A stretch of DNA of 64,000 nt, taken from positions 248,001 to 312,000 of the forward strand of contig NZ_JAINVZ010000005.1 of NCBI RefSeq assembly GCF_019890615.1, read 5' to 3'. The translations under genes were made by a program, and so were the position numbers. Under the pieces are notes generated by a model. That model had not been told where the DNA came from. It worked only from the letters and a program-made list of their open reading frames with translations, and searched no databases. Of this stretch, positions 31,838 to 57,098 are shown one piece after another; within the stretch, counting starts at the first letter, position 1; every line of letters starts with the position of its first letter. This DNA is from Streptantibioticus parmotrematis (lineage in GTDB: Bacteria; Actinomycetota; Actinomycetes; Streptomycetales; Streptomycetaceae).

Positions 31838-33382
31838 ATGACACCCACCGCCCTGCGCGACCGGACCGACGAGGCCACCGGAGCACCCGGAGCCCCGCCG
31901 CACCCGACCGGCCACAGCCTCGGCGCCTGGTTCGCACGCGGCATGGCCGTCGACCCGGACGCCGAAGCACTCCGCGTCGGCAACCACCACCTGACCTACC
32001 GTCAAGTTCATGATGAGGCACTGGCGTTGGCGGGCGCGCTGACCGGTGCCGTGCGCGGCCGGCCGCGGCGCGTCGGCCTGCTCGCCGCCCGCAGCGTGCG
32101 CGCCTACACGGGCCTGCTCGCCGCCACTTTCGCCGGTGCCGCCGTCGTCCCGCTCAACCCCGCCTTCCCGCCCGCCAGGACCGCGGCGATGGTCGAGGCC
32201 GCCGGGGTGGACGTGGTCATCGTGGACGACGACGGCGCGGCCCGGCTGCCGGACCTCGCCCATGCCCTGGCCGGCGTCCCGGTCGTGGACGCCCCCGCGG
32301 ACACCCCGGCCGCCGCGCCGCACCCCGCCGACCCGGACGAGATCGCGTACATCCTGTTCACCTCCGGCTCCACCGGGCGGCCCAAGGGCGTGCCGGTGCT
32401 CCACCGCAACGTCGACGCCTACTTGCGCTTCGTCCACGACCGCTACGGCTTCGGGCCCGACGACGTGTTCTCGCAGACCTTCGACCTCACCTTCGACCTG
32501 GCGATGTTCGACCTGTTCGCCGGGTGGGGGAGCGGCGGCACCGTGGTCAGCGTCCCGCAGGCCGCGTACGCCGGTCTGGAGCGGTTCCTGACCGAGCAGG
32601 GCGTCACCGTGTGGTTCTCCGCGCCCAGCCTGATCGCGCTGGCCCGCCGCAGAGGACTGGACGAGGACGCGATGCCCACCCTGCGCTGGAGCCTGTTCTG
32701 CGGCGAGCCGCTGCTCGACCGCGACGCGGCCGACTGGCAGCGCGCGGCGCCTCACTCCGTCGTGGAGAACCTCTACGGGCCCACCGAACTGACCATCTCG
32801 TGCAGCGTGCACCGCTGGGACCCCGACACCTCGCCCGCCCGCGCGGTCAACGGGGTCGTGCCGATCGGCGCGCTGCATCCGGGGATGAGCTCCATCCTGC
32901 TGGACGTGGACGAGGCGACCGGGGCGGGCGAACTGTGCGTCACCGGCCACCAGATGTTCCCCGGCTACCTCGACCCGGCCGACGACGAGGGCCGGTTCGT
33001 CAGCTGGGGCGGCAACTGCTGGTACCGCACCGGCGACCTGGTGCGCTGGGCCGACGGCGACGAACTCGTCTACCTGGGGCGGCGCGACCACCAGGTGCAG
33101 ATCCACGGCGTACGCGTGGAACTCGCCGAGGTCGAATGGGCACTGCGCGAGGTCGAGGGCGTGAACGACGCCGTGGTGGTCGCCGTCGACGGCGAACTCG
33201 TCGCCTACTGGCAGGGCACCTCCAGGACCGCCGCCGCCCTGGCCGCGCAACTCGCCGACATCCTGCCCAAGGCGCTCGTCCCGCGCCGCTTCGTGGAGGT
33301 CGAGGACTTCCCGCTCAACCCCAACCGCAAGATCGACCGCAAGGCGCTGGCCGCCCGCGCCGCCGGACCGGTCACCGCGTGA
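31838..33382 (+). CDS. Free-standing amino acid adenylation enzyme
   Basis: This 514-residue ANL-family enzyme has the P-loop core FTSGSTGRPKG, the A5 motif NLYGPTE, YRTGDLV and the C-terminal Lys motif NPNRKIDRKAL. There is no attached carrier domain. The A4 region reads FDLTFDLAMFDLF, so Asp for alpha-amine recognition is present. The closest pattern I know is the D-alanine ligase/ZmaJ type that loads small amino acids on a discrete carrier. Beside an FkbK/FkbI-like set, loading serine for aminomalonyl-ACP is an attractive guess, but the substrate cannot be read with certainty. The ATG has GAGAGG upstream, 28 nt after the thioesterase. Confidence 0.88.
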   Translation: MTPTALRDRTDEATGAPGAPPHPTGHSLGAWFARGMAVDPDAEALRVGNHHLTYRQVHDEALALAGALTGAVRGRPRRVGLLAARSVRAYTGLLAATFAGAAVVPLNPAFPPARTAAMVEAAGVDVVIVDDDGAARLPDLAHALAGVPVVDAPADTPAAAPHPADPDEIAYILFTSGSTGRPKGVPVLHRNVDAYLRFVHDRYGFGPDDVFSQTFDLTFDLAMFDLFAGWGSGGTVVSVPQAAYAGLERFLTEQGVTVWFSAPSLIALARRRGLDEDAMPTLRWSLFCGEPLLDRDAADWQRAAPHSVVENLYGPTELTISCSVHRWDPDTSPARAVNGVVPIGALHPGMSSILLDVDEATGAGELCVTGHQMFPGYLDPADDEGRFVSWGGNCWYRTGDLVRWADGDELVYLGRRDHQVQIHGVRVELAEVEWALREVEGVNDAVVVAVDGELVAYWQGTSRTAAALAAQLADILPKALVPRRFVEVEDFPLNPNRKIDRKALAARAAGPVTA

Positions 33383-41882: not shown

Positions 41883-43193
41883 TCAGACCAGGAGTTCGCG
41901 GGGTGCGGGATGGCCGAGGAACGCGGTCGGGCTGGCAGTGAGCCCGTACGCCCCGGCCTGGAAGACCGCGATGAGGTCGCCGACCCGCGCGGACGGCAGC
42001 TCGACCGCCTTGCCCAGCAGGTCCAGCGGGGTGCACAGGCAGCCGACGACGTCGACCGTCTCGGTCTCGGGTGGCGCGCCCGGTGCGCGGTGGGCGACGG
42101 CCATCGGGTAGTTGCGGCGGATGGCGCTACCGAAGTTGCCGGTGGCGGCGAGCTGGTGGTGCAGTCCGCCGTCGACCACGAGGAACGTGGTGCCGCGCGA
42201 CTCCTTGCGGTCCACGACGCGGGTCAGGTACACGCCCGCCTCGCCGACGAGATGGCGGCCGAGTTCGATCACCACGCGGGCTTGCGGCAGGCGCGGGCGG
42301 ATCGAGGTCTCCAGCAGTTCGGCCAGGTTCTCGCCGATCGGCGCCAGGTCCAGCGCCCGGTCGCGGCGCGCGTAGGGGATGCCGAAGCCGCCGCCGAGGT
42401 TGAGGTAGCGCACCGGGGCGGGCGCGAACCCGGCCAGCTTCAGCACCAGTTCGACGGTGGCCCGCTGGGCGGCGCGGATGCTGTCGGCGTCGAGGTTCTG
42501 GGAGCCGGCGAAGACGTGGAAGCCCAGGAAGTCCACCTCGGCGGTGGGGATCCGGCCCAGTAGTTCGGGCACCTGCTCGGAGTCCACGCCGAACTGCTGC
42601 GGTCCGCCGCCCAGCCGCATCCCCGAACCCCGCACCGCGAACGGCGGGTTGACGCGCAGCGCGACCCGGGCCCGTACGCCGAGCCGTCCCGCCACCTCCC
42701 GTACCCGTTCCAGCTCCAGGGCCGACTCCAGCTCGACGGTGACGCCCGCCGCGATCGCCTGTGTCAGCTCACCGGTCGTCTTGCCGGGTCCGGCGAAGCT
42801 GATGCGGGAGGCGGGCACGGTGGTGTCGAGCGCCCGCAGCAACTCGCCGCCGGACGCCACGTCCAGGCCGTCCATCAGCCCGGCCAGATGCGCCAGCAGG
42901 GCGGGCAGGGGATTGGCCTTCACCGCGTAACTCAGCTCCACGCCCTCCGGCAGCCCCGCCCGCACCCGCGCCACCCGGCGGGAGACCAGCGTGCGGTCGT
43001 AGACGAAGAACGGGGTGGACCCGGCGCGCGCCGCCAGCAGATCGGCCCGCACACCACCGATCGTGAGCGTGTCGCCGTCGAAGGGGAACGCGGTGGGATC
43101 GGGGTGCGGGAACGCCGTCCCGGTGACCGGGGCCACGACGCCCGCGACGCTAGTCGCACGCGCCGCCATCAGGCTTCCTCCCGTGTCCGGCAT
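41883..43193 (-). CDS. PLP-dependent decarboxylase (BtrK / exosortase-associated type)
   Basis: This 436-residue fold-type III PLP enzyme belongs to the DAP/ornithine decarboxylase family. The PLP Lys92 lies in SYAVKANP, followed by HVFAGSQ, NLGGGFGIPY, ELGRHLVGEAG, GCLCTPLD (active-site Cys) and FQAGAYG. The ATG overlaps the ligase stop by one base (TGATG). With the neighbouring ligase and ACP it forms a set like BtrI/BtrJ/BtrK of butirosin or VinL/VinN/VinO of vicenistatin, in which an amino acid is loaded on an ACP and then decarboxylated. The same trio occurs in exosortase A gene neighbourhoods. The substrate is unknown. Confidence 0.9.
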   Translation of the reverse strand: MPDTGGSLMAARATSVAGVVAPVTGTAFPHPDPTAFPFDGDTLTIGGVRADLLAARAGSTPFFVYDRTLVSRRVARVRAGLPEGVELSYAVKANPLPALLAHLAGLMDGLDVASGGELLRALDTTVPASRISFAGPGKTTGELTQAIAAGVTVELESALELERVREVAGRLGVRARVALRVNPPFAVRGSGMRLGGGPQQFGVDSEQVPELLGRIPTAEVDFLGFHVFAGSQNLDADSIRAAQRATVELVLKLAGFAPAPVRYLNLGGGFGIPYARRDRALDLAPIGENLAELLETSIRPRLPQARVVIELGRHLVGEAGVYLTRVVDRKESRGTTFLVVDGGLHHQLAATGNFGSAIRRNYPMAVAHRAPGAPPETETVDVVGCLCTPLDLLGKAVELPSARVGDLIAVFQAGAYGLTASPTAFLGHPAPRELLV

Positions 43194-44875
43194 CAGCCCT
43201 CCTCCAGCGTCCGGCGCAGCCCGGCCCGGTCGAACTTGCCGTTCACCGACCGCGGCAGCCGGTCCAGCACCACCGTGCGCCGCGGCAGCATGAACGCGGG
43301 CAGGTCGGCGGCGAGCGCCCGTTGCAGCGTCGCGGTGTCGCAGGGACCGGACACCACCAGGACGACGTGCTGGCCGAGCCGTTCGTCCGGCAGGCCCAGC
43401 GCCACCGCCTCCGTCACCAGACCGGTGGCGTACACCGCCTCCTCGACGTCGGTGGGGCTGATCCGGTAGCCGGAGGACTTGATCATCTCGTCGGAGCGCC
43501 CGACGAAGTACAGGTAACCCTCCTCGTCGCGGTAGACGGTGTCCCCCGACCACACCGCGATCTCGCGCGGCGACCCGCCCCACGCCGCGTCCACGCCCGG
43601 CGGGCGGTGCTCCGCGGCGGCCGGGACCGGGCGGAAGCGCTCGGCCGTGCGCTCCGGGTCGTTCCAGTACCCCAGCGACACCAGCGCCCCGCGGTGCACC
43701 AGCTCACCGTGCTCGCCCGGCCCGCACGGGGTGCCGTCGGGGCGGACCACCAGCACCTCCGCGTTCGGGATCGCCCGGCCGATCGAATCCGGCCTGCGGT
43801 CGACCTGACCCGGGTCGAGATAGGTGGAGCGGAACGCCTCCGTCAGCCCGTACATCAGATACGGCGCCGCCTTCGGGAACAGCTCCCGCAACCGCTCCAG
43901 GGTGGCCCCCGGCATGCGGCCCCCGGTGTTGGCGAAGTACCGCAGCCGCGCGGCCGCCTCCGCCGGCCACTGCTGGCCGGCCAACTGCATCCACAGCGGC
44001 GGCACGCAGGTCAGCCCCGTCACCTGATGGCGTGCGCACAACCGCACCACGTCGGCCGGTACCAGGTAGTTGGTGAGCACCACGTGGGCGCCCGCCGCCA
44101 GCGCCGTCGTCAACTGGCTGAAACCGGCGTCGAAGCTGAGCGGCAACGCGGCCAGGATCGTGTCGTCCGCGGTGTGCCCCAGATAGCCCGCCACGCTGTC
44201 GGCCCCCGCGACCAGGTTGCGGTGCGAGAGCATCACGCCCTTGGGCGCGCCGGTGCTGCCGGAGGTGTAGAAGACGGCCGCCAGATCCGCGTCGACCACC
44301 GCCTCCGCCCCGGGCACCGGGCCGCAGCCGCCGCCGGTCAGCGTCTCCCAGCCGACCGTCCGCCACGGCAGGCCCGCCGAGGCCACCGTGCCGGTGTCAC
44401 CGGCGACCACCACGTCCCGTACCGACGTCGTGGCGGGCAGCGCGGCGCGCACGGTCTCGTACCGCTCCGCCGTGGTCACCACCGTGACGGCCGCGCAGTC
44501 CGCCGTCACGTGTGCCAACTGCCGTGCCTTGAACAGCGGGTTGACGGGAACGAAGACTGCACCGGCCGCCGAGGCGGCGAGCATCGCGACGACGGTCTCG
44601 ACGCGTTTCTCCGCGTAGACCGCGATCCGGTCGCCGCGCCGCACCCCGAGCCGGTGCAGCCCGGTCGCCGCCGCGGCCACCTCCTCGGCCAGCGCCGCGT
44701 AGCCCACGGTCCGGGACCTGAAGGTGAGCGCGGGCCGGTCCGGGGCGCCGCGCAGCACCAGCCGGTCCACCCTGGGGGCGAGCGCCTCCCGCGCCGGGCC
44801 GGGATCGCGGGTCAGGTCGCTGCCCGCGGCGCTCGCCCCTGCGCTCGGCGGGGCGCCGACCACCACGTCAGTCAT
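43193..44875 (-). CDS. AMP-forming acyl/amino acid ligase (exosortase-A-associated type)
   Basis: This 560-residue ANL-family enzyme has P-loop YTSGSTGAPKG, YGLTEAFRSTY, the motif SGDTVYRDEEGYLYFVGR and the C-terminal Lys in RSVNGKFDR. It overlaps the upstream ACP gene by 8 nt and the downstream decarboxylase by 1 nt, so the three proteins are made together. It probably activates a carboxylic or amino acid and loads the discrete ACP next to it. It differs clearly in sequence from the other adenylating enzyme in the cluster. Confidence 0.9.
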   Translation of the reverse strand: MTDVVVGAPPSAGASAAGSDLTRDPGPAREALAPRVDRLVLRGAPDRPALTFRSRTVGYAALAEEVAAAATGLHRLGVRRGDRIAVYAEKRVETVVAMLAASAAGAVFVPVNPLFKARQLAHVTADCAAVTVVTTAERYETVRAALPATTSVRDVVVAGDTGTVASAGLPWRTVGWETLTGGGCGPVPGAEAVVDADLAAVFYTSGSTGAPKGVMLSHRNLVAGADSVAGYLGHTADDTILAALPLSFDAGFSQLTTALAAGAHVVLTNYLVPADVVRLCARHQVTGLTCVPPLWMQLAGQQWPAEAAARLRYFANTGGRMPGATLERLRELFPKAAPYLMYGLTEAFRSTYLDPGQVDRRPDSIGRAIPNAEVLVVRPDGTPCGPGEHGELVHRGALVSLGYWNDPERTAERFRPVPAAAEHRPPGVDAAWGGSPREIAVWSGDTVYRDEEGYLYFVGRSDEMIKSSGYRISPTDVEEAVYATGLVTEAVALGLPDERLGQHVVLVVSGPCDTATLQRALAADLPAFMLPRRTVVLDRLPRSVNGKFDRAGLRRTLEEG

Positions 44876-45134
44876 TCAGGGCCACCTGCGGCGTCACGAA
44901 CTCCTCGACCGCCGCCCACAGCGCGCCCACGGTGGAGAAGGTCTCCTCGGTCAGCAACTCGTCCGACAGCTCCACCCCGAAACCGTCCTCCAGGTCGGCG
45001 AGCAACTGCACGACGCCCATCGAGTCCAGGCCCAGGGCGGCCAGGTCGTCGTCCGCCCGCAGCTCGCCCCCCTCGGCGTACGGCAGATGGGGCAGCAGGG
45101 CGTCCTGGAAGGAGCGCGGTATGTCCATGGTCAT
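44868..45134 (-). CDS. Discrete acyl carrier protein of the ligase/decarboxylase set
   Basis: This 88-residue ACP has the phosphopantetheine Ser38 in LGLDSMGVVQLL. It is the first gene of the minus-strand transcript that runs through ligase, decarboxylase, SARP, exporter and AT-less PKS. Its role is to hold the activated acid while the PLP enzyme decarboxylates it. The product is then probably handed to a PKS module or to the condensation protein. Confidence 0.92.
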   Translation of the reverse strand: MTMDIPRSFQDALLPHLPYAEGGELRADDDLAALGLDSMGVVQLLADLEDGFGVELSDELLTEETFSTVGALWAAVEEFVTPQVALND

Positions 45135-45499
45135 CTCGTGAGTCCCTGTCCGTCGCGTCGGGTCGGCGCGAACCGGCCACCGGGGGCGACCGTCGCACCG
45201 GCCGTCCCGAGTCCTTCCGGAACGGCTCGCTGTCGGCTACGAATTCACAACCTCGCGCTCTCAACGCACCATCGTCACGCCATCGCCCTGCCCCGGCCGG
45301 GCCGTCCGCACCGGCCGCCCGGTCGCTTCCGGCCGCTCCACCGGGACGCGAGCGGGGCCCGTCGATAGCGCATCGATAGCGGCGCGGCCACCGGGCCGTC
45401 GGACCGGACAGCGCGACGGGCTCGCGGTGATGGCGGGCCCCAGCACGATGGGCCGTGTTCGCACCACGGCAGCTTGGTATTCCACAGGGGAGGCAGCCC
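45135..45499. promoter_or_regulatory. Divergent intergenic control region
   Basis: This 365-bp gap separates the minus-strand ACP operon from the plus-strand LuxR regulator. I see no gene in it. It holds the SARP-like direct repeat at 45362-45379 and should contain promoters for both directions. A good ribosome site (GGGGAGG, 45487-45493) precedes the regulator ATG. Confidence 0.6.
45362..45379. promoter_or_regulatory. SARP-like direct heptamer repeat
   Basis: TCGATAG occurs twice, separated by 4 bp (start-to-start 11 bp, one helical turn). This is the spacing of SARP operators, and the heptamer is close to the TCGAGnn consensus. It lies in the divergent gap next to a cluster that encodes a SARP. 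Confidence 0.55.
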
Positions 45500-46549
45500 A
45501 TGACCAGCGCGAGCGCGCCGGTGCCGCAGGAGGCACGGGACTTCGGGGCGGCGACGATCGACGGCGGCCCGGACGACGGACCCGTCGCCGCCGTCTACCG
45601 GTACGCGGCCCGGCGGGGAGCACTGGACACCGCCGCTTTCGGCATCGTGGCCGAGGAGTTGGGCCTGACCGTGCCGGAGGTCTTCTGCGCGGCCACCCGG
45701 CTGGTCGAGCTCCATCTGCTGCGCACCCAGGAGGGCCAGGACGACGGCGGGGTGCTGCTCCCGCTGGACTCGCGCTCGGCCGCGGCCCTGCTGGTCTCCC
45801 CGATCGAACGGGCCATCTTCCAGCAGCGCGAACTCGCCGACCGGCTGCGGGACCGGATCGCGTCCATCGCGGGAACGCCCGAGGGCGCGCCCGGCGCGGC
45901 CGACGCCGTCGAGGGGGTGGCCGAGATCCGCGGCATGCTGAAGCTGGCCGCCGGAGCCTGCCGCACCGAGGCCGCGATGCTGCGCCCTGGACACGGGGAC
46001 GACCCGGTGGTGGACGAGTTGTTCGACGCCTGCCACGGCTCGCTGGACCCCAGGGTGGGCGTACGGGTCGTCGCGCCGCACCGCGACCGGGCCGACTTCG
46101 GCTCGCGGGCCCGCGTGAAGCGGACCGCCGAGAGCGGCGCGTGGGTGCGCACCCTGCAACGCGTGCCGCAGACCGCCGTGGTCTTCGACCGCTCCCTCGC
46201 GGTGCTGGTCACGCTGCCGGAGGACGACGGGGTGCCGACCGCCCGTCAGGTGACCGACCCCGGTGTGGTGGCCTTCGTGATGGACGTCTTCGAGCTGCTG
46301 TGGGAGGGCGCGACCCCGTTCAGCGCCGAGGAGCACGGGTACGACGAGGGCATCGCCGACGACGTCCAGCAGTCGATCGCCCGGCTGATGGCACAGGGGC
46401 TGACCGACGAGGTGGTGGCCCGGCGGCTGGGCATGTCGGTGCGCACCTGCCGCCGCCACATCGCGGCGCTGCTGCGCAACCTCGACTCCGTCAGCCGCTT
46501 CCAGGCCGGCGTGCAGGCGGCGCAGCGGCTGGTGGCGGTGGTGGCCTGA
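45500..46549 (+). CDS. LuxR-type regulator with N-terminal TrmB-like helix-turn-helix
   Basis: This 349-residue protein has an N-terminal winged-helix-like region (ARRGALDTAAFGIVAEELGLTV spread over about 30-75) and a C-terminal LuxR HTH (LTDEVVARRLGMSVRTCRRHI). The central domain is typical of actinobacterial TrmB/LuxR regulators. The ATG at 45500 is preceded by GGGGAGG; the frame is open further upstream, but no better start exists. It is divergent from the ACP-ligase-decarboxylase operon and convergent with the condensation gene. It is likely a second pathway regulator. Confidence 0.88.
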   Translation: MTSASAPVPQEARDFGAATIDGGPDDGPVAAVYRYAARRGALDTAAFGIVAEELGLTVPEVFCAATRLVELHLLRTQEGQDDGGVLLPLDSRSAAALLVSPIERAIFQQRELADRLRDRIASIAGTPEGAPGAADAVEGVAEIRGMLKLAAGACRTEAAMLRPGHGDDPVVDELFDACHGSLDPRVGVRVVAPHRDRADFGSRARVKRTAESGAWVRTLQRVPQTAVVFDRSLAVLVTLPEDDGVPTARQVTDPGVVAFVMDVFELLWEGATPFSAEEHGYDEGIADDVQQSIARLMAQGLTDEVVARRLGMSVRTCRRHIAALLRNLDSVSRFQAGVQAAQRLVAVVA

Positions 46550-46629: not shown

Positions 46630-48318
46630 TCATCCCACCGGGACCATCCGCCGGGCCAGCGCCGCCAGCGGCCGGGCACCGGTGAAGTCGGACACCTCCA
46701 GTCCCGTCCAGCCCGCGGCACGCAGTTCCGCCGCCACCCGCGGCAGCCGCAGCACCCGGCCGCCCGCTCCGGTGTATCCGCGTCCCGCGTCCACCGACGC
46801 CAGTCCGTTGACCCGGGCGACGACACCGGTGAGCGCGGTCAGGGAGGCGGGGTCGTCCGGGCGCTCGGGGGGATCGGCCGGCGCCCCGCCACGATCCGGT
46901 ACGGGCGGGAACCCGGGCAGCGCCGTCATCGCGGCGAAGTCGAGGTCCGCCGTCCCGTCCCGGTGCGCCTGGAGCAGCCGCGCGTAGCCGCGCAGGAAGC
47001 GTTCGGCGTCGGACGCCTCCATCACCTCGGCCAGGCAGTCCAGCGCCACGGTCACGCCGTCGTCCCACTCGTGGACGCGCAGGTACGCGTCGGTCGCCGA
47101 CCGCGCCCACGCCACCGGTTCCGCGTTGCGCACCAGCCGCTCCCTGCGGCTGCCGCACGAACGTCCGGCGTGCGTGAGGAAGTTGACCTCGGGTGCCGCC
47201 CGCAGCGTACGGCCGCGCCGCTCACCCTCCAGGGCCAGCGCCTCGATCACCTCGTCGTACGCGGCGTAGGCGTGCTGCTGGGCGAGGCGGGCCCGTTCGG
47301 CGACCCGGCGCACCACCTCGGAGAAGCGCGGCGTGCCGCCCAGGTCGACGCACACGAGCGCGGGGGAGAACATGCAGGTCAGCGCCGACGTCCTGGGCCC
47401 GGCGCCGCGATGGCTGGTCAGCTGGCGCAGCGCGATCCGCTCCTCGCCGCAGTACGCCGCCATGGTGACCGCGTACGCCGCCAGGTGCACCGCGGACGGC
47501 CACACGGCATGCCGCGCGGCGATCTCCCGTACCACGGGCAGCAGTTCGGGCGAGGTCAGCGAGACGCCGTACGCCACCGGCCCGCCGGAATCCACCTGCC
47601 CACCGGGCTCCGCGGGCCCGCACGACTGCGCAGGCCCACCGGAAGCAGTGGGCCGCTCTCCCGCGCCGCGAGGAACACGGCGGCGGGCGAACTGGTCGGC
47701 CGGGACCCGGGCGGCCTCCTCGCGCCAGTGCCGCAGCGCCGCTTCGCGTTCCGCCGCCGGGCGAGCCGCCTCCAGGGCCGCGAGGTCCGTGGGCTGGTGG
47801 GCGACCGCGGGCAGTCGCGCGGGACGGCCCGCGACGGCGGCGGTCAGCAGCTCCTCGAACTCGCCCTTGAAGACCTCCAGGCTGCCGTCGTCGAACGCGA
47901 CGTGGTTGAAGACCACGACCAGCCGCACCGGCACGCCCCCGGTCGTCACCGCGCACGCCCGCATCGGCCACTCGGTCGCCATGTCGAACTCGGTGCCGGC
48001 CAGCTCGGCCACCACCGCGGCGGGCCCGGCGGTGCCGTCCGCATCGGTGCTCGCCACCCGCAGTGGCAACGGGCCCGGCGGCTGCACCCGTTGGCGCGGC
48101 CAGGGCAGCGCGTCGGCGTCGTAGACCGTGCGCAGCGTCTCGTGCCGCAGCACCAGGTGGTCCAGGACCGCCCGCAGCCGGGACAGCGACAGCCCCTCCG
48201 GCAACGGGCAGTTGGCGACGATGTGCGCGTCGTGCCGGGCCCCGGGCGGCACCTGGTGGTAGCGCAGCCAGTGGTAGCGCTGCCCCCAGCACAGCTCGGA
48301 ACTCCTCACCTCGGGCAT
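46630..48318 (-). CDS. Free-standing condensation-domain protein with a degenerate carrier tail
   Basis: This 562-residue protein has an NRPS condensation-type domain (about 1-440). Its catalytic motif reads NHVAFDDG against HHxxxDG, so the second His and the Asp are kept. A variable linker with Gly/Pro/Ser repeats interrupts it near residue 215-240. The last 70 residues look like a carrier domain (LRLPRVAAEL, LEVSDF, LAALARRM), but the phosphopantetheine Ser region reads GAGGRVL, so it cannot be primed. It could form an amide or ester bond between an assembly-line acyl chain and an amine held elsewhere, and so act as a release enzyme. Alone and divergent from the ten-gene operon, its partner carrier is unknown. 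Confidence 0.85.
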   Translation of the reverse strand: MPEVRSSELCWGQRYHWLRYHQVPPGARHDAHIVANCPLPEGLSLSRLRAVLDHLVLRHETLRTVYDADALPWPRQRVQPPGPLPLRVASTDADGTAGPAAVVAELAGTEFDMATEWPMRACAVTTGGVPVRLVVVFNHVAFDDGSLEVFKGEFEELLTAAVAGRPARLPAVAHQPTDLAALEAARPAAEREAALRHWREEAARVPADQFARRRVPRGAGERPTASGGPAQSCGPAEPGGQVDSGGPVAYGVSLTSPELLPVVREIAARHAVWPSAVHLAAYAVTMAAYCGEERIALRQLTSHRGAGPRTSALTCMFSPALVCVDLGGTPRFSEVVRRVAERARLAQQHAYAAYDEVIEALALEGERRGRTLRAAPEVNFLTHAGRSCGSRRERLVRNAEPVAWARSATDAYLRVHEWDDGVTVALDCLAEVMEASDAERFLRGYARLLQAHRDGTADLDFAAMTALPGFPPVPDRGGAPADPPERPDDPASLTALTGVVARVNGLASVDAGRGYTGAGGRVLRLPRVAAELRAAGWTGLEVSDFTGARPLAALARRMVPVG

Positions 48319-48564: not shown

Positions 48565-48858
48565 ATGTCGAAGATCGCCGCCAAGGAAGCCAGCAAGATC
48601 GCGTCCAAGGTCGCCGCCAAGTCGGCGAGCAAGTCCGCCTCGAAGGTGGCCTCGAAGGCCGCGAGCAAGGCCGCCAGCAAGGTGGCGTCCAAGGTGGCCG
48701 TGAAGGAGGCCAGCAAGGTCGCGTCGAAGGCCGCGTCCAAGGCTGCCTCCAAGGCCGCGTCGAAGGTGGCCTCCAAGGTCGCCGCCAAGTCGGCCTCCAA
48801 GGTCGCGTCGAAGGTCGCCGCCAAGAGCGCGTCCAAGGTCGCCTCGAAGGTCGCCTGA
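48565..48858 (+). CDS. 97-residue lysine-periodic tetrapeptide-repeat peptide
   Basis: I do not recognise this protein. After Met-Ser-Lys it consists of 23 consecutive four-residue units of form x-Ala-(Ser/Ala/Val)-Lys, plus a final Val-Ala. Lysine stands at every fourth position from 3 to 95 (24 in all). Only seven residue types occur (M, S, K, I, A, V, E); there is no Arg, Cys, His, Gly, Pro or aromatic residue. Such a sequence should be a cationic, helix-prone rod with lysines on a slowly rotating face. There is no signal peptide. AGGAG lies 6 nt before the ATG. It is the first gene of an operon with an ACP, dehydrogenases, four GNAT proteins and a protease, and a strong hairpin follows it. 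It may be a scaffold or precursor peptide; a histone-like or antimicrobial peptide is the alternative. Confidence 0.85.
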   Translation: MSKIAAKEASKIASKVAAKSASKSASKVASKAASKAASKVASKVAVKEASKVASKAASKAASKAASKVASKVAAKSASKVASKVAAKSASKVASKVA

Positions 48859-48948: not shown

Positions 48949-49215
48949 ATGGAACGCGCGGAAGTCATCGAGCACCTGCGGAACTCGCTTTCCGTGGTGC
49001 TGGACCGGCCGCTGCCGGAGTTCAATGCGGAAACGCGGATCCTGGAGGACCTGGGGCTGGACTCCATGCGTTTCATCGAACTCCTCATGAGCCTCGAGGA
49101 CACGATCGGCCTGGAAGTGGACCCGGAATCCCTCGAACCCGAGGTGTTCCGCGACGCCGGCTCCCTCGCCGACTACATCAGGACCCGGCTGGACCCGGCC
49201 CACGCCTCCGCCTGA
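48949..49215 (+). CDS. Discrete acyl carrier protein of the ten-gene operon
   Basis: This 88-residue ACP has the phosphopantetheine Ser39 in LGLDSMRFIELL. AGGAAGGA (48934-48941) lies 7 nt before the ATG; the frame is open for 78 nt upstream, but this is the only good start. It is followed by two acyl-CoA dehydrogenase-type genes. It probably presents an acyl or aminoacyl group to these flavoproteins and perhaps to the GNAT proteins. It is distinct from the other two discrete ACPs in the cluster. Confidence 0.92.
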   Translation: MERAEVIEHLRNSLSVVLDRPLPEFNAETRILEDLGLDSMRFIELLMSLEDTIGLEVDPESLEPEVFRDAGSLADYIRTRLDPAHASA

Positions 49216-49944: not shown

Positions 49945-51150
49945 ATGACCGAGCTCGACGCCCCTTTGCGGGAGTTGCGGGGCATGTGCCGCGAGGCGGC
50001 GCGCGACCTGCGCACCCGGGCCCTGGCCGTCGACGCCGACCCCGCCGACGTCGAACGCCACCTCGACTCGCCCACGCTCACCCTGATCCGGGTGGCCAGC
50101 ACGCCCAAGCGCTTCCGGGCCGACGGCTCGGTGGACGACGGCGGATACTCCGGCAGCTGTCTGGCCCGGGTGATCGCCGGGGTCGAACTCGCCCGTGGCG
50201 ACGCCGGGTTGATCTGCGCCAACACCGGCCCGTCGCTGGCCGGAGTGGCCGTCGACGCGCTCGGCAGCGAGGCGCAGCAGGAGGCGTTCTACGACGCCAT
50301 CGCCGACGGCCGCACCTGGACCTTCTTCGGCATGACGGAACCGGACCGCGGCAGCGACGCCACCGCTATGGAGACCCGGCTGGAGGCGGCCCCCGACCCG
50401 GCCGACGGCATGCTGCTGACCGGCGCCAAGCGCTACGTCGGCAACGCCTCACGCGGCCGGATCGGCGTGGTCTTCGCCCGCACCGGCCGCACCGCGCTGT
50501 CCGTCCGCGGCGCCGTCGTCCGCATACCCGCCGCGGGGTACGAGGCCACGCCGCTGGACATGATCGGGCTGCGCGGCGCCCGGATCTGCGCGATCGACCT
50601 GAACGGGGTACGGGTGCCCCGCGAGGACGTGCTCGGCGCCCACCTGCCCGCCTCCCGGCGCGGCCTGTGGGGCATCGGCCGCACCTTCAACGTCATGCGC
50701 ACCCAGATCGCCTCCATGGCCCTGGGCGTCGCCCTCGCCGCCCGCGACCTCGTGCGCGAGGAGCGCCCCGGGTGGAGCGGCCACGAACGGGTCTCCGCCC
50801 GACTGGATGCGGCGCTCGCCCTGCTCCACGACGCAGCCGTCCAGGTCGACCACGACCCCGACGCCCGGCGCCCGCCGTCCGTCGCCAAGCTGCACATCAC
50901 CGACCTCGCGGTGCGCACCACCCGCTGGGCCGCGCACGCCCTCGGGCCCGGCGCGATGCTGGAGCACCCACTGCTGGAGAAGTGGTGTCGTGACGTCGCC
51001 GCGTTCGAGTTCATGGACGGCACCAGCAACATCCAGCGCCTCCACATCACCCACGACGTCGCCACCCGCGCGACGGCACCACGGCCGTCGGCCGGCCGCG
51101 TGACGACCCCGACCGCCGACCGCGTGACGGCACCTCAGGGGGCGGCATGA
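49945..51150 (+). CDS. Acyl-CoA dehydrogenase family protein
   Basis: This 401-residue flavoprotein has GMTEPDRGSDATA in the FAD/substrate region, KRYVGNASRGRIG, and the C-terminal motif EFMDGTSNIQRLHI. The last has Asp where the catalytic Glu of most family members (YEGTSEIQR) stands. The ATG at 49945 has GAGGAG upstream; a GTG at 49915 overlapping the previous stop is the alternative start. A low-complexity tail with repeated RVTxPTAD-like units ends the protein. With the half-size subunit and the adjacent ACP it may desaturate or oxidise an ACP-bound acyl group, by analogy with ZmaI-type aminomalonyl-ACP formation, or desaturate another acid. Confidence 0.85.
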   Translation: MTELDAPLRELRGMCREAARDLRTRALAVDADPADVERHLDSPTLTLIRVASTPKRFRADGSVDDGGYSGSCLARVIAGVELARGDAGLICANTGPSLAGVAVDALGSEAQQEAFYDAIADGRTWTFFGMTEPDRGSDATAMETRLEAAPDPADGMLLTGAKRYVGNASRGRIGVVFARTGRTALSVRGAVVRIPAAGYEATPLDMIGLRGARICAIDLNGVRVPREDVLGAHLPASRRGLWGIGRTFNVMRTQIASMALGVALAARDLVREERPGWSGHERVSARLDAALALLHDAAVQVDHDPDARRPPSVAKLHITDLAVRTTRWAAHALGPGAMLEHPLLEKWCRDVAAFEFMDGTSNIQRLHITHDVATRATAPRPSAGRVTTPTADRVTAPQGAA

Positions 51151-51683
51151 CCGCCGCCGCCGCACCCTCGTGCCGCCGGGTCGAGGCGCGCGAGTCGTGG
51201 CCGCACTCCTGGGCGGCCCGCCCGCCGCGCGACGAGGACCACGCCGCGCTGCTCGCCCTGTTCACCGAGCCGGACTTCCACTTCCGCACCCATCAGCCGG
51301 ACCTGCTGCCCGAGTGGCAGGTGCTGGAGCTGATCGCCGAGGACCGCACCCACGTGCTGCTGGACGGCGGCGAGGTGGTGGGCCTCTACGCCTTCGAGGA
51401 GATGGGCGGCGACCACGCCGGACACGACCTGCTCCACCTGCGCCTGACCGCGCGGCTGCCGCTGACCGCGTGGACCTCCGCGTTCGAGGCGATCGTCGCG
51501 GGTGAGCTGTTCCACCGCGAACTGGTGCGACTGGAGCTGCGCGTGGGGCAGTTCGACGCCCGCGGACTCGACGCCGCCCGCACCTTCGGCCTCACCGAGG
51601 AAGGCACCCTCGCCCACCTCGTCGTCCACGACGGCGAGCGCGCCGGGTACGTCTTCTTCTCGCGGATCTGGGAGCCGTCATGA
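51147..51683 (+). CDS. GNAT-fold acyltransferase-like protein 1
   Basis: This 178-residue protein shows GNAT-like order (HVLLDGGEVVGLYAFEEM as beta strands 2-4, then AFEAIVAGELF, LELRVGQFDARGLDAARTFGLTEEG). The acyl-CoA pyrophosphate-binding motif R/QxxGxG/A is not visible. It overlaps the dehydrogenase gene by ATGA and the next GNAT gene by ATGA. Its acyl donor and acceptor are unknown; with an ACP in the operon, an acyl-ACP donor is possible. Confidence 0.7.
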   Translation: MTAAAAPSCRRVEARESWPHSWAARPPRDEDHAALLALFTEPDFHFRTHQPDLLPEWQVLELIAEDRTHVLLDGGEVVGLYAFEEMGGDHAGHDLLHLRLTARLPLTAWTSAFEAIVAGELFHRELVRLELRVGQFDARGLDAARTFGLTEEGTLAHLVVHDGERAGYVFFSRIWEPS

Positions 51684-52574: not shown

Positions 52575-53164
52575 TGTCGTTCGTCACCGTCAGGCACTTC
52601 ACCGAGGACGACGTGCCGACCCGCATCGCACTGCTGCGCGAGTCCCGCTTCCAGGCGAACCTCACCGACTTCGCCGTCGTCAGCTCCGACGACGACCTGA
52701 CGGCAGGTCAGTTTCGGACCATCGCGGAGGAGCACGACACCAAGCGCATCCTCACCCTGTGCGCCCCCGGCGGCGAGACGGTCGGGTTCGCCTGGATCAC
52801 CTCCATCGACTGGCGCGCCCAGACCTGCGAGCTGTCCTTCGGCGTCCTGCCGCGCTACCGCGGCGCGTTCGGCGCCAAGGCGGTCATCGCCGCCCACACC
52901 CACATCCGCCGCGAACTCAACATGCGCGTCGTCATCAACCAGGTGCTGGAGCACAACACCATGCTGGTCTCCGCCGGCGACCTCACCGACCGCCGCCGCG
53001 TGCGCTGCGCCTACGACTCGTACACCGTGGGGGAGTGGCGCACCGCCTGCTACTGGACCGAGACCCAGGAGGAGGCGCAGCGCACCCTGGACGCCCTCGA
53101 CGAGCGTCGCCGCGAGATCGCCGAGCGCATCCGGGCCACGTCGGCGAAGGCGTCCGCGTCATGA
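52574..53164 (+). CDS. GNAT-family N-acyltransferase 4
   Basis: This 196-residue protein is the best-preserved GNAT of the four. It has VGFAWITSIDWRAQTCELSFGVL, the donor-binding loop RYRGAFGAK, then IRRELNMRVVINQVLEHNTMLVSAG. A charged C-terminal helix follows (DALDERRREIAERI). Its ATG overlaps the TGA of the preceding gene by one base. It probably transfers an acyl group from CoA or ACP to an amine. The lysine-rich peptide of the same operon, an amino starter unit or a small amine could be the acceptor. Confidence 0.8.
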   Translation: MSFVTVRHFTEDDVPTRIALLRESRFQANLTDFAVVSSDDDLTAGQFRTIAEEHDTKRILTLCAPGGETVGFAWITSIDWRAQTCELSFGVLPRYRGAFGAKAVIAAHTHIRRELNMRVVINQVLEHNTMLVSAGDLTDRRRVRCAYDSYTVGEWRTACYWTETQEEAQRTLDALDERRREIAERIRATSAKASAS

Positions 53165-56100
53165 CCGGGCCCGCCGCGTCCGGCGGCTACCTGCGCCACC
53201 CCACCCTGCGGGGCGACACCGTCGTCTTCTGCTGCGAGGACGACCTGTGGACGGTGTCCGCCGACGGCGGCGCCGCGAGCCGCCTGACCGCCGACGGCGT
53301 CCCCGTCAGCCACCCGAGGCTCTCCCTGGACGGCACCCTGATCGCCTACGTCGGCACCCGCGAGGGCCCGCACGAGGTGTACGTGGTCCCGCTCGCGGGC
53401 GGCCCCGCGCGGCGGCTCACCCACCAGGCGGCCCGCTGCGCGGTCACCGGATGGCACCCGGTCACCGGCGAGATCGTCTACGCGAGCACTGCCGGGCAGC
53501 CCGAGGGCTTCGGCCACCGGCTCTTCGCGGTCGCCCCGGACGGAGGACCGCCCCGACTGCTGTACGAAGGCCCGGGCGCGGCACTGTCGTTCGGCCCGGG
53601 CGGCGGCGTGGTGTTGGGCCGCAGCATGGCCGACCCGGCCCGCCGCAAGCGCTATCTCGGCGGCGCGGCAGGCCAGTTGTGGACCGACACGGCGGGCAGC
53701 GGAGTCTTCGAACGCCTGCCGCTGCCCGGCGGCAACCCGGCCGATCCCTGCTGGGTGGGCGACCGGATCCACTTCACCGGCGACCACGAGGGCAACGGCG
53801 AGGTGTACTCCTGCCGCTCCGACGGCACCGACCTCGTCCGCCACACCGACCACGGCGACGCCTACGTGCGCGCGCTGTCCACCGACGGCAGACGGCTCGT
53901 CTACCAGTGCGCCGGCGCCCTCCACCTGCTCGACCCGGCGCTCGGCACCCCGCGCCGCGTCCCGGTGCGCCTCGCGGTCTCCGGCGCGCAGCACCGCCGC
54001 AGGATCGTCACCGCCGCGGGCTTCCTCGACCACGCGCGCCTGAGCCCCGACGCCGACCGGCTCGCGGTCGTGGCGCGCGGCAAGGCGTTCACCATGGCGC
54101 CGTGGTCCGGCCCGGTGCGGCGGCACGGTGTCGCGGAGGGCACCCGCTACCGGCTGCTGGAATGGCTGTCCGACGCCCGTCGCCTGGTCGCCGTCGCCGC
54201 GGACGAAGGCCCGGACGAGCGACTGGCGCTGCTGTCCGCCGAGGGCGGCGCCGAAGTGGCCGTGCTTCCGCTCGGCGGGCACGGCGTCGTCACCGCGCTG
54301 GCCGCCGCACCCGTCGGCGGGCGCATCGCCTTCACCACCAGCCGCCAGCAGTTGTGGCTGGTCGACGCCGACGACGCGGGCAGCGACCGCGCCGACGGCT
54401 GGCGCACGCCCCGGCTGCTGGACGCCAGCGCCCACGAACGCATCGAGGACCTCGCCTGGTCCCCGGACGGCCGCTGGCTCGCCTACGCCTTCCCCGGCAC
54501 CGCCCGCACCACCGCCATCAAGGTCGCGGAAGCCGCCACGGGCCGCACCTTCCCCGTCACCGCACCGGTCCTGCGCGACACCCTGCCCGCCTTCGACCCG
54601 GCCGGCCGCTACCTGTACTTCGTCGGACAGCGCGACCTGACCCCCGAGCACGACCAGGTCGAGTTCGAGGTGGGCTTCCCGTTCGGCGCCCGCCCGTACG
54701 CCATCACCCTGCGCGCGGACGAACCCCCGCCGTTCACCGGCGCGTTCGGCCCCGAGCGCGAACCGGGGCCGGACGGCCGCGTCCAGGTGGAGATCGACGC
54801 CGAGGGCATCGAACGCCGCGTGGTGCCGTTTCCGGTCCGCGAGGGCCGCTACGCCGCCGTCGTCGGACTGCCCGAATCCGTCCTGCTGCTGACCGTGCCG
54901 GTCGCCGCGCCGGACCCGGCCAGACCGCGCGCCGTCCCCGAGGGCACCGTGGCGACGGTGGAACTCGACACCGGCGAGGTGACCGACGAATACCTGGGCC
55001 CGGTCGACGAGTTGAGCACCGACCCGGACGGCGAGCTGCTGCTCTACCGTCACGACCACCGGCTGCGCGTGGTCCGCGCCGGGGCACCCGCCGAGGCGCT
55101 GGCCGAGTACGACCACCCGCAGGCGCCGCCCGGACGCCAGACCGGCTGGATCGACCTGGAGCGGGTCACCGTGCCGTTCCGCCCGGCCGCCGAGTGGCGG
55201 CAGATGTTCCGGGAGGCGTGGCGGCTCCAGCGCGAGGGCTTCTGGAACGCGGCCATGTCCGGCGTCGACTGGCCGGCCGTGCACGACCGCTACCTGCCGG
55301 TGCTCGACCTGGTGGCCACCCGCTCCGAACTGTCCGACCTGCTCTGGGAGATGCAGGGCGAACTCGCCACCTCGCACGCCTACGAACGCGGCGGCGACTA
55401 CGGGCTGCCCGAAGGCCACCAGCAGGGCTTCCTCGGCGTGGACTGGGACCCGGCGCAGGACGCGGACGACCACTGGCGCGTCGCCCGCGTCCTGCGCGGT
55501 GACCCGTGGGACCCCCGGGCCACCTCCCCGTTGGACCGTCCGGGCGTGTGCGTGCTGCCCGGCGACCGCATCGTCGCGGTCGACGGCCGCCCGGTCGGCG
55601 CCGCGGGCCCCGGCGAGCTGCTCACCGGTCTCGCCGACCGTGAGGTGGAGCTGACGGTACGGCGCGACGGCGCGGCCCCGCGCCGGATCGTGGTCCGGGC
55701 CGCCCGCGACGAGGCCCGCGCCCGCTATCTCGACTGGCTCGCCGCCAACGCCGCCCACGTCCACGACGCCTCGCACGGACGGCTCGGCTACCTCCACGTG
55801 CCCGACATGTTCCGCACCGGATACGCCGACTTCGTACGGCAGTTCCTCGCCGGACTCGACCGCGAGGGACTGGTGGTCGACGTGCGGTTCAACGGCGGCG
55901 GGCACGTCTCCCCGCTGCTGCTCGACCGGCTCGCCCGGCGCCGCGTCGGCGAGGAGCACGGCCGCTGGAGCGGCGCGCTGCCCTACCCGCTGGAGTCGCC
56001 GCGCGGACCGATGGCCGTACTCGTCAACGACCAGACCGGGTCCGACGGCGAGATCTTCGCCCACGCCTTCCGCGCCCGCCGCCTCGGCGCGCTCGTCGGG

Positions 56101-56379
56101 ACCCGCACCTGGGGCGGCACGATCGCCACCTGGCCACGGCACGAACTCGTCGACGGCACGGTCACCACCCAGCCGGAGTTCTGCTACTCCTTCCGTGACG
56201 TCGGCGCGGGCCTGGAGAACCGTGGCGTCGAGCCCGACATCGAGGTCGACGTCCCTCCAGTGCGGTCCGGTCCCGGCGAGGACCCCCAACTCGCCGCAGC
56301 GGTCGCCCACTTGCTCGGTGTCCTCGCCACCCGCGACGAACCGGCGGCGGTCCCCCTCACCGTGGGCAGCCCCGGATGA
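53161..56379 (+). CDS. Tricorn-type protease
   Basis: This 1072-residue protein is the usual length of the tricorn core protease. The N-terminal part has beta-propeller WD40/TolB-like blades (repeated SPDGxxLAY-type motifs) to about residue 660, followed by a PDZ-like region (GDRIVAVDGRPV) and a C-terminal S41-type catalytic domain. The proposed catalytic residues, by analogy with Thermoplasma tricorn H746/S965/E1023, are His739 (ATSHAYERGG), Ser961-Asp962 (GSDGE) and Glu1019 (GLENRGVEPDIEV). No signal peptide is seen, so it is cytoplasmic. It overlaps the GNAT gene by ATGA and the transferase gene by ATGA. A protease tightly coupled to PKS-type genes is unusual; it could trim or recycle the lysine-repeat peptide. 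Confidence 0.9.
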   Translation: MTGPAASGGYLRHPTLRGDTVVFCCEDDLWTVSADGGAASRLTADGVPVSHPRLSLDGTLIAYVGTREGPHEVYVVPLAGGPARRLTHQAARCAVTGWHPVTGEIVYASTAGQPEGFGHRLFAVAPDGGPPRLLYEGPGAALSFGPGGGVVLGRSMADPARRKRYLGGAAGQLWTDTAGSGVFERLPLPGGNPADPCWVGDRIHFTGDHEGNGEVYSCRSDGTDLVRHTDHGDAYVRALSTDGRRLVYQCAGALHLLDPALGTPRRVPVRLAVSGAQHRRRIVTAAGFLDHARLSPDADRLAVVARGKAFTMAPWSGPVRRHGVAEGTRYRLLEWLSDARRLVAVAADEGPDERLALLSAEGGAEVAVLPLGGHGVVTALAAAPVGGRIAFTTSRQQLWLVDADDAGSDRADGWRTPRLLDASAHERIEDLAWSPDGRWLAYAFPGTARTTAIKVAEAATGRTFPVTAPVLRDTLPAFDPAGRYLYFVGQRDLTPEHDQVEFEVGFPFGARPYAITLRADEPPPFTGAFGPEREPGPDGRVQVEIDAEGIERRVVPFPVREGRYAAVVGLPESVLLLTVPVAAPDPARPRAVPEGTVATVELDTGEVTDEYLGPVDELSTDPDGELLLYRHDHRLRVVRAGAPAEALAEYDHPQAPPGRQTGWIDLERVTVPFRPAAEWRQMFREAWRLQREGFWNAAMSGVDWPAVHDRYLPVLDLVATRSELSDLLWEMQGELATSHAYERGGDYGLPEGHQQGFLGVDWDPAQDADDHWRVARVLRGDPWDPRATSPLDRPGVCVLPGDRIVAVDGRPVGAAGPGELLTGLADREVELTVRRDGAAPRRIVVRAARDEARARYLDWLAANAAHVHDASHGRLGYLHVPDMFRTGYADFVRQFLAGLDREGLVVDVRFNGGGHVSPLLLDRLARRRVGEEHGRWSGALPYPLESPRGPMAVLVNDQTGSDGEIFAHAFRARRLGALVGTRTWGGTIATWPRHELVDGTVTTQPEFCYSFRDVGAGLENRGVEPDIEVDVPPVRSGPGEDPQLAAAVAHLLGVLATRDEPAAVPLTVGSPG

Positions 56380-57098
56380 CGCCGACCACGGCCCCCGCGC
56401 CGCCGCTGGCGCGCCCGCGCCCGGGGGAGTGCCACGTGTGGACGCTCCCGGTGCGCCACCGCCCCGAATGGCTCGACGTGCTGACCGCCGCCGAACGCGC
56501 CCGTCTCGACACCCTCGGCGACGGCCCGGCCGCCGCGACCCACCTCACCTCGCGCGCGGTCCAGCGCCTGATCGGATCGGGCTACCTGGGCGTGCCGCCC
56601 GCCGAGATACGCATCGGCCGCCGGTGCGAACACTGCGGGGCCGGACACGGCCGCCCGCGCTGGACGGGCTCCACGCTCGACTACTCCGTCTCGCACGCCC
56701 GCGAATGGCTGGTGATGGCGGTCGTGGGCGACGGACGCGTAGGCGTCGACATCGACCGGCTCGACCCCGGCCAGAACCCCACCGCGCTGGCCGCGCACAC
56801 CCTCACCGCCGCCGAGGCCCGCGACTTCGCGGCGCTGCCCGCCCACCGCAGGCCGCAGGCGTTCCTGACCGCGTGGACCCGCAAGGAGGCCGCGATGAAA
56901 CTCACCGGCCACGGCCTGGCCGCGCCCCCGTCCCGCATCGACGTCACCGGCCCCACCGCGCACGCCCCCGCCGTCCCCGCCTGGCCCCGCGACCCCGTCC
57001 ACCTGCGCCCCCTGCCCGCACCGCCCGGACACACGGCGGCCCTGGCGACCACGCACCCGGTCACGTCGATCAGCCCGTCGGGCCTGCCCTGGGCATGA
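56376..57098 (+). CDS. Sfp-type 4'-phosphopantetheinyl transferase
   Basis: This 240-residue transferase has the Sfp/AcpT motifs GVDIDRLDP near residue 125 and WTRKEAAMKLTGHGLA near 168, which bind Mg and CoA. It activates carrier proteins by adding the phosphopantetheine arm. It overlaps the protease gene by ATGA and ends the ten-gene operon. It probably primes the PKS ACPs and the three discrete carriers. Confidence 0.94.
   Translation: MTPTTAPAPPLARPRPGECHVWTLPVRHRPEWLDVLTAAERARLDTLGDGPAAATHLTSRAVQRLIGSGYLGVPPAEIRIGRRCEHCGAGHGRPRWTGSTLDYSVSHAREWLVMAVVGDGRVGVDIDRLDPGQNPTALAAHTLTAAEARDFAALPAHRRPQAFLTAWTRKEAAMKLTGHGLAAPPSRIDVTGPTAHAPAVPAWPRDPVHLRPLPAPPGHTAALATTHPVTSISPSGLPWA

Follow-up and report, generated by a model that had tools for sequence, protein, structure and literature searches.

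Among the small proteins that hold biosynthetic intermediates by an amide bond, the LysW carriers are marked by zinc-binding cysteines and an acidic C-terminus, and the pearlin carriers by a single loading site. In starter biosynthesis, a ligase, an ACP and a PLP decarboxylase work together as BtrJ/BtrI/BtrK in butirosin and as VinN/VinL/VinO in the vicenistatin/fluvirucin systems. Pearlins are amide-linked carrier peptides with proteolytic release (PMC9303977), GNATs acylate lysine or ornithine side chains of ribosomal peptides (PMC13060382, PMC9505594), and precursors of the selidamide type bear a leader of NHLP or Nif11 type (PMC13060382).

The locus described here belongs to Streptantibioticus parmotrematis and was analysed in a stretch of 64,000 nucleotides, hereafter the window. 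It is built around a ribosomal peptide with lysine at every fourth residue, which stands beside genes for acyl carriers, an adenylating ligase, a decarboxylase, GNAT-type proteins and a protease:

31838..33382, + strand: stand-alone amino-acid adenylation enzyme (AA-adenyl/DltA-like, under the models' cut-offs)
41883..43193, - strand: PLP decarboxylase (passes TIGR03099; start inferred)
43193..44875, - strand: adenylating ligase (passes TIGR03098)
44868..45134, - strand: second acyl carrier protein, ACPb
45455..46549, + strand: LuxR/HTH-type regulator (Pfam matches at or slightly under cut-off)
46630..48318, - strand: stand-alone condensation domain, divergent from the peptide gene (HxxxD retained, NHVAFDD)
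48565..48858, + strand: lysine-repeat peptide (97 aa, 24 Lys, period 4, without leader)
48949..49215, + strand: acyl carrier protein (ACP, PF00550), beginning 90 bp after the peptide stop codon
49262..49918, + strand: acad1, short, matching the acyl-CoA dehydrogenase C-terminal domain only
49945..51150, + strand: acad2, acyl-CoA dehydrogenase (N, M and C domains matched; start inferred)
51147..51683, + strand: u1, GNAT fold by structure prediction, without canonical P-loop
51680..52141, + strand: u2, GNAT by weak sub-cut-off matches, without canonical P-loop
52134..52574, + strand: u3, GNAT fold by structure prediction, without canonical P-loop
52574..53164, + strand: gnat4, GNAT (PF13302)
53161..56379, + strand: tricorn-type S41 protease
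56376..57098, + strand: 4'-phosphopantetheinyl transferase (PPTase)

From acad2 through the PPTase, consecutive genes overlap by 1 to 8 bases, and with the ACP gene following the peptide so closely, the first-pass annotation of this DNA was right to place the peptide first in an operon of biosynthetic genes. The decarboxylase has its best PDB match in BtrK, the L-glutamyl-[BtrI acyl-carrier protein] decarboxylase (E 2e-77); the ligase matches linear gramicidin synthase best, and next after those entries comes 3wvn, which we take to be VinN. Farther from the peptide than the decarboxylase come a SARP-type regulator, then an ABC transporter, and a modular PKS whose associated genes we read as methoxymalonyl-type. 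On the other side of the cassette, two adjoining proteins (58192-59178 and 59257-60225, both on the - strand) pass NF033852, the model for fulvocin C-related bacteriocins, and by our reading of the DNA both end in Cys-rich tails.

The peptide gene runs from an ATG at 48565 to a TGA ending at 48858, and its product consists of MS, 23 K-x-A-[SAV] tetrapeptides and KVA, reading MSKIAAK...KVASKVA, with the composition A 33, K 24, S 23, V 12, I 2, E 2 and M 1. Lysine occupies positions 3, 7, ... 95, and 23 of 23 Lys-to-Lys spacings equal 4, which is exactly the array described at first pass from the letters alone: lysine at every fourth residue, 24 times, without phase slip and with seven residue types. 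When the residues were shuffled 200,000 times, the longest period-4 lysine run was 10, as against the 24 observed, and a run of 8 was reached in 59 of the 200,000 shuffles. At the DNA level 20 of the 23 units of 12 nt are distinct, serine is written as TCG, TCC and AGC and lysine as AAG throughout, and TRF reports 23.8 copies with 68% matches. The gene of the nearest relative, in Streptomyces sp. ICBB 8177, differs by 8 synonymous and 1 non-synonymous codons, together with one in-phase indel of 4 residues. The lysine repeat is thus preserved at the protein level while its DNA units have drifted, and with so many distinct units a DNA-level tandem duplication as the sole origin of the pattern is ruled out. 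Against Pfam the peptide gives nothing above cut-off (best, a sub-cut-off Cornifin match at E 0.11), against NCBIfam it has no match, and a search of its own genome returns a single match.

Further clusters were sought by the neighbouring enzymes u3 or gnat4, without the peptide itself as a query. The u3 search of 297 family genomes matched in 9, strongly in 7 (the genome of the window among them), and a gnat4 profile run against genome_contigs, a collection described as covering 84,980 species, found 9 loci, among them 3 already known from u3. Including the window there are 13 distinct loci, of which 12 are assessable; the one left out, L025 of Streptomyces sp. XM83C, is a contig starting just before gnat4, in which the peptide region is absent. 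Two weak u3 matches, L009 and L010 (E 7e-4 and 9e-4), were left out of the counts, and L017, L018 and L019, being contigs of G016, G129 and G031, were each counted once. Some loci span only 15-21 kb, and partner absences there are to be read accordingly; in G090 and G123 (L015 and L016) the peptide lies outside the first 20 kb and was seen after extension of the flanks. The cassette is rare and patchily distributed. In the genus to which G081 belongs, 5 of 35 genomes match gnat4 at E<=1e-40, and a class-wide survey at E<=1e-25 gives at least 1 of 394 genomes (that of the window), with 8 first-look candidates scored per listed genome; no gnat4 relatives were found in viral contigs or in plasmids.

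In all 12 assessable actinomycete clusters, that is, the window and 11 further ones, a lysine-repeat peptide stands at the operon head. Homologues lying mainly outside biosynthetic clusters had been named at first pass as adverse to a scaffold role, and this is not what is found: the peptide is in 11 of 11 further assessable clusters, and of the 297 family genomes only the 7 with the cassette were seen to have such a peptide as a free-standing protein. The latter result comes from a search with the peptide as query, a period-4 query that may miss period-5 forms, which gave matches in 14 genomes at E<=1e-4; the top seven coincide with the seven cassette genomes and have runs of 12 to 24 lysines at period 4. 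In the other seven (eight matches, both strands read), five have no lysine array, G051 has a Pro/Gln-rich stretch with lysine roughly every 7 residues, and G218, which has no u3 match, has a Pro-rich period-4 run of 10 lysines. The G218 run is a Lys-Pro-Ala linker inside a 523-residue cell-wall enzyme frame (L064, frame 3-1571) with transglycosylase-like, LysM and M23 domains. Hence free-standing lysine arrays are restricted to cassette genomes among the 297, and period-4 lysine runs are not; and since such a run occurs in an unrelated enzyme, the periodicity by itself does not prove a carrier.

The 12 peptides have 29-97 residues and 7-24 lysines, and no leader/core division is present in any of them, the array being the whole protein. 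Their N-termini read M-x-K in 11 and M-S-S-K in one (two with inferred TTG start codons), their C-termini K-[VA]-A or KVIA in every case, and none contains Cys, Phe, Tyr or Trp. Out of 161 Lys-to-Lys spacings 124 equal 4, 31 equal 5 and six equal 1 or 3, the last six all in the Gly/Gln-rich peptide of L024, which has additional lysines inside a period-4 frame. Spacing 4 is kept throughout in 8 of 12 peptides, 5 is used in a clade of three (in two of which the first spacing is 4), and L024 is irregular. The exact every-fourth spacing emphasised at first pass therefore holds in the window and is not a requirement of the family; that spacings of 4 or 5 are tolerated with the lysines kept suits independent sites rather than the face of a fixed fold.

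What the family keeps is lysine itself. Summed over the 12 peptides, 725 residues include 173 Lys and 0 Arg, in comparison with 29 Lys and 464 Arg in 14 neighbouring proteins, and 177 Lys and 1356 Arg in 34 flanking ORFs chosen by codon composition. Because these genomes are Arg-rich, selection in the family seems to be for a primary amine and not for mere positive charge, with the caveat that the Lys-rich tails of nucleoid proteins likewise avoid Arg. We also considered whether the cassette enzymes themselves avoid lysine, their K/(K+R) being 0.059, and dropped this because flanking ORFs have similarly low ratios (pooled 0.115, median 0.071) and those of the PKS proteins lie between 0.034 and 0.114. 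That the lysine-repeat family is conserved and functional we regard as practically certain.

The partners of the peptide are equally constant. The decarboxylase, acad1 with acad2, the four GNATs and the tricorn are each present in 12 of 12 clusters, as is the PPTase, which in G090 and G123 is fused with an ACP. The ACP and the condensation domain are each seen in 10 of 12, and the LuxR/HTH-type regulator (45455..46549) is co-conserved with the clusters whose ligase is of A type. Six clusters have such a ligase, five have one of ATP-grasp type and one has none seen, the weak A-type matches in G090 and G123 being assigned to the other adenylating enzyme and not to the ligase. Relatives of the 48949..49215 ACP adjoin the decarboxylase in G090, G123, palsa_506 and NBRC 109706, and a relative of the 31838..33382 adenylation enzyme adjoins the tricorn in both type-II-like PKS clusters (G090 and G123). 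The condensation-domain gene of G081 matches as two adjacent pieces (L014:14214-15904), perhaps by a frameshift or an assembly error, and L020:490-1107 and L021:1-592 encode a further short protein in which only the C-terminal domain of acyl-CoA dehydrogenases is matched.

Regarding the four GNAT-type proteins, u1 and u3 have no match in Pfam, and their assignment comes from AlphaFold2 models (pLDDT 83 and 88) which Foldseek aligns with GNAT structures at best E 3e-9 and 2e-7, polyamine acetyltransferases being among the matches; u2 is matched below cut-off by the NCBIfam spermidine N1-acetyltransferase (E 2e-5) and by Pfam (E 0.03). The canonical CoA P-loop of GNATs is [QR]xxGx[GA], as given in PMC13060382. 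No match to it is present in u1, u2, u3 or gnat4 of the window, and across the 12 clusters it occurs anywhere in the sequence of 1 gnat4, 4 u1, 1 u2 and 4 u3. The four u3 matches all fall at one N-terminal site (RAAG..), which the window model places in the first helix, and two of the u1 matches share another (RLTGEA); by our reading no match sits at the P-loop place. In gnat4, the best conserved of the four, that place reads R-G-x-[FY]-G-[AP] in 7 aligned sequences. The missing P-loop in the window GNATs would fit an acyl donor that is not free CoA; alternatively, some of the four proteins could be inactive.

The protease aligns nearly full-length with the tricorn of Thermoplasma (1k32), having propeller repeats, PDZ, C1 and S41 domains with the Ser-His, Ser and Glu all present, and Ser738-His739, Ser961 and Glu1019 are invariant in the 12 tricorn-type proteases. 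At the position of the basic-P1 pocket, presumably that of tricorn Asp936, the residue is Glu in 9 of 12 and Gln in 3 of 12, and the loop corresponding to the anchor of tricorn, which we take to be Arg131/Arg132, falls in a gap when the protease is aligned to 1k32.

In contrast to these constant parts, the assembly line beside them changes. A modular PKS accompanies the cassette in five clusters (the window, ICBB 8177, CBMA29, A. alni and G081). Two others, G090 and G123, have genes for a KS and a KAS III-like protein, by our reading a type-II-like PKS including the KS partner. In three more the cassette stands next to a LanM, the class II lanthipeptide synthetase: those of NBRC 109706 and S. 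aidingensis pass TIGR03897, and that of YIM 98790 is called by 55% identity to the LanM of L021. A KAS III-like gene is present in palsa_506, and part of a KS on the TBY4 contig. The three LanM clusters are the same three that use period 5, and a tree built from u2, gnat4 and tricorn joins them with support 100. Parts that are kept while the assembly line changes are what is expected of a cassette that makes a building block or introduces a modification, and this one looks portable across assembly systems.

Two direct links between the cassette and its neighbours were considered and set aside. The first PKS protein of the window starts, before the window itself, with a KS whose active-site Cys is Gln (..VDSGQSSSL..). 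A KS with this replacement is the mark of a self-loading module, and with a KSQ-type loading domain opening the PKS, an aminoacyl-ACP as its starter in the window is ruled out. Another PKS protein (33432-37277, - strand), opposite to the other PKS genes, has KS, KR and ACP and no acyltransferase domain matched. As for LanM, the lysine-repeat peptide is an unlikely substrate, since LanM is in 3 of 12 clusters (some loci being short), several units of the NBRC 109706 peptide have no Ser/Thr, and LanM has a candidate precursor ORF of its own; in the two loci examined its substrate is probably a separate ORF of 96-99 aa. These candidates, L021:17763-18053 and L023:18398-18697, follow LanM and end in NTSVSII and DTTVSIV; the former has no Cys and the latter one, and LanM may there dehydrate without the usual lanthionines.

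Taken together, these features lead us to propose that the peptide is a leaderless ribosomal carrier, whose lysine amines would be acylated from the ACP by the GNATs and which would then be digested by the tricorn. In the proposed scheme, a ligase of A or ATP-grasp type, the ACP armed by the PPTase, and the BtrK-like decarboxylase would, as their homologies suggest, give an aminoacyl-ACP, and the split acyl-CoA dehydrogenase would act on the ACP-bound acyl group. The four GNAT-type proteins, probably in a complex, would move the acyl group to many lysine epsilon-amines on each peptide molecule, the stand-alone condensation domain perhaps sharing in this transfer, and the amide-bound group may undergo further alteration on the peptide. 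The tricorn-type protease would finally digest the loaded peptide into small acyl-lysine fragments, for use by the neighbouring modular PKS, type-II-like PKS or lanthipeptide synthetase pathway. Our confidence declines along this chain: the lysine amines are probably modified chemically; their acylation by the cassette GNATs we favour by a small margin; carrier use with release by the tricorn we hold as a tentative proposal, falling a little short of even chances, and the complete scheme stands no higher. The scaffold suggested at first pass, in which regularly spaced lysines would suit repeated acylation, survives and is strengthened in that the cassette contains the acyl-carrier, acyltransferase-fold and protease genes which a lysine-acylation scaffold would need, and has to be altered as to the exact spacing of 4, which is inessential. 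Counting against the carrier proposal are the KSQ loading in the window, by which the aminoacyl unit would not be the PKS starter there; the ACP unseen in 2 of 12 loci and the ligase in one (some loci being short); and, in the tricorn, whose substrate is assumed, the Gln at the presumed basic-P1 position in 3 of 12 and the gapped anchor loop.

Other readings of the same peptide have to be weighed against the lysine carrier. It might be the end product, a leaderless polyacylated RiPP for which the tricorn would serve turnover or self-protection; Lys-acylating GNATs do occur in RiPP clusters (PMC13060382, PMC9505594), and transporters are at hand: the window has ABC transporter genes near by, and G090 and G123 each have one of the MatE type. 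However, 29 to 97 residues with 7 to 24 lysines would be odd for a bioactive product with a target, and a cassette common to three different assembly systems looks auxiliary, so we judge an end product unlikely. Much the same low standing is given to an unmodified comb which, as a non-covalent polycation, would organise the acidic ACPs and the enzymes or tune the pathway. The window ACPs are acidic indeed (Asp+Glu 20 and 19 against Lys+Arg 8 and 2), and the comb is of low complexity with a spacing that is not strict, but Arg should then serve equally, and it is entirely missing from the peptides of these Arg-dominated genomes.

Activity on membranes as a leaderless bacteriocin, or a role as a reserve of lysine or as an amine sink capturing a reactive intermediate for self-protection, is less probable still. 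Lys-rich peptides can act on membranes, and the acyl-CoA dehydrogenases could yield amine-reactive enoyl intermediates for a sink; yet the period-5 peptides and that of L024, retaining their lysines, would seem to have no common amphipathic pattern, and a bacteriocin leaves the constant GNATs and tricorn unexplained. The weakest candidate is the one that the first-pass annotation had named as a competitor, a protein like histone H1 or the HU tail, or another nucleic-acid-binding protein. Its Ala/Lys/Ser/Val composition resembles the basic tails of actinobacterial nucleoid proteins, which are Lys- rather than Arg-rich. Nevertheless all 12 peptides are inside the same biosynthetic cassette, the searches yield no DNA-binding domain (in Pfam only the sub-cut-off Cornifin match, in NCBIfam none), and the array has a single match in its own genome and is free-standing in only 7 of 297 genomes, all with the cassette; a histone or nucleoid role is therefore unsupported, and we have set it aside as highly improbable.

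Should the lysines carry intermediates as we propose, this would be a new carrier principle in natural-product biosynthesis with a high loading capacity; the signature of lysine array, four GNATs, split dehydrogenase and tricorn could serve for finding unknown pathways, and the system might become a tool for multi-site peptide acylation. Whatever the mechanism, the peptides form a family that is defined and can be tested, found in 12 of 12 clusters beside three unlike assembly systems and unrecognised here by Pfam and NCBIfam. In the open-licence literature we found no published description of such a cassette or peptide design.

Among known systems, the selidamides and nostolysamides are alike in having GNAT-type enzymes beside a small ribosomal peptide with lysine as the proposed acyl acceptor: u1-u3 and gnat4 lie near the peptide in all 12 clusters, and one clade here has LanM too. 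Selidamide precursors are built of leader and core, whereas the peptide here is the array alone with up to 24 sites, and four separate GNAT genes are accompanied by a dedicated ACP, PPTase, dehydrogenase pair, decarboxylase and tricorn. With the pearlins (PEARL systems such as those of ammosamide and 3-thiaglutamate) the proposal shares the idea of a ribosomal amide carrier cut by a protease; a tricorn gene is present in 12 of 12 clusters, and the peptide is its assumed substrate. The proposed attachment is at many side chains and not at the C-terminus, and no PEARL (LanB-like) ligase is present among those window ORFs that were scanned with Pfam. To the LysW-type amino-group carriers it is likened by small size and by the amide-held intermediates proposed here, and it differs in having no Cys or Trp in 12 peptides and C-termini of KVA, KAA or KVIA. 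The butirosin, vicenistatin and fluvirucin starter systems likewise combine ligase, ACP and PLP decarboxylase, and BtrK is the solved structure nearest to the decarboxylase, but here a lysine peptide, four GNATs, a dehydrogenase pair and a tricorn are joined to them, and the window PKS has its own KSQ-type loading domain. The Lys/Pro/Ala linker of the G218 cell-wall enzyme has a similar period-4 run of 10 lysines, with Pro in most units and Arg around it, as part of a multidomain frame. Class II lanthipeptide clusters are resembled by the period-5 clade only, in which LanM is beside the cassette, and the tricorn of Thermoplasma (1k32) by the nearly full-length match and the kept catalytic residues of a copy that here belongs to a gene cluster and has the Arg131/Arg132 loop gapped. 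We know of no precedent for a comb of up to 24 loading sites. The peptide has the defining features of no known family tested here. We suggest, as a possibility which we place somewhat below the carrier proposal itself, that it represents a third kind of chemical carrier: a gene-encoded comb bearing many copies of a building block as side-chain amides, in contrast to the single thioester of an ACP and the single attachment at a peptide C-terminus, loaded from ACP by a complex of four GNATs, unloaded by a dedicated tricorn and portable among three pathway types.
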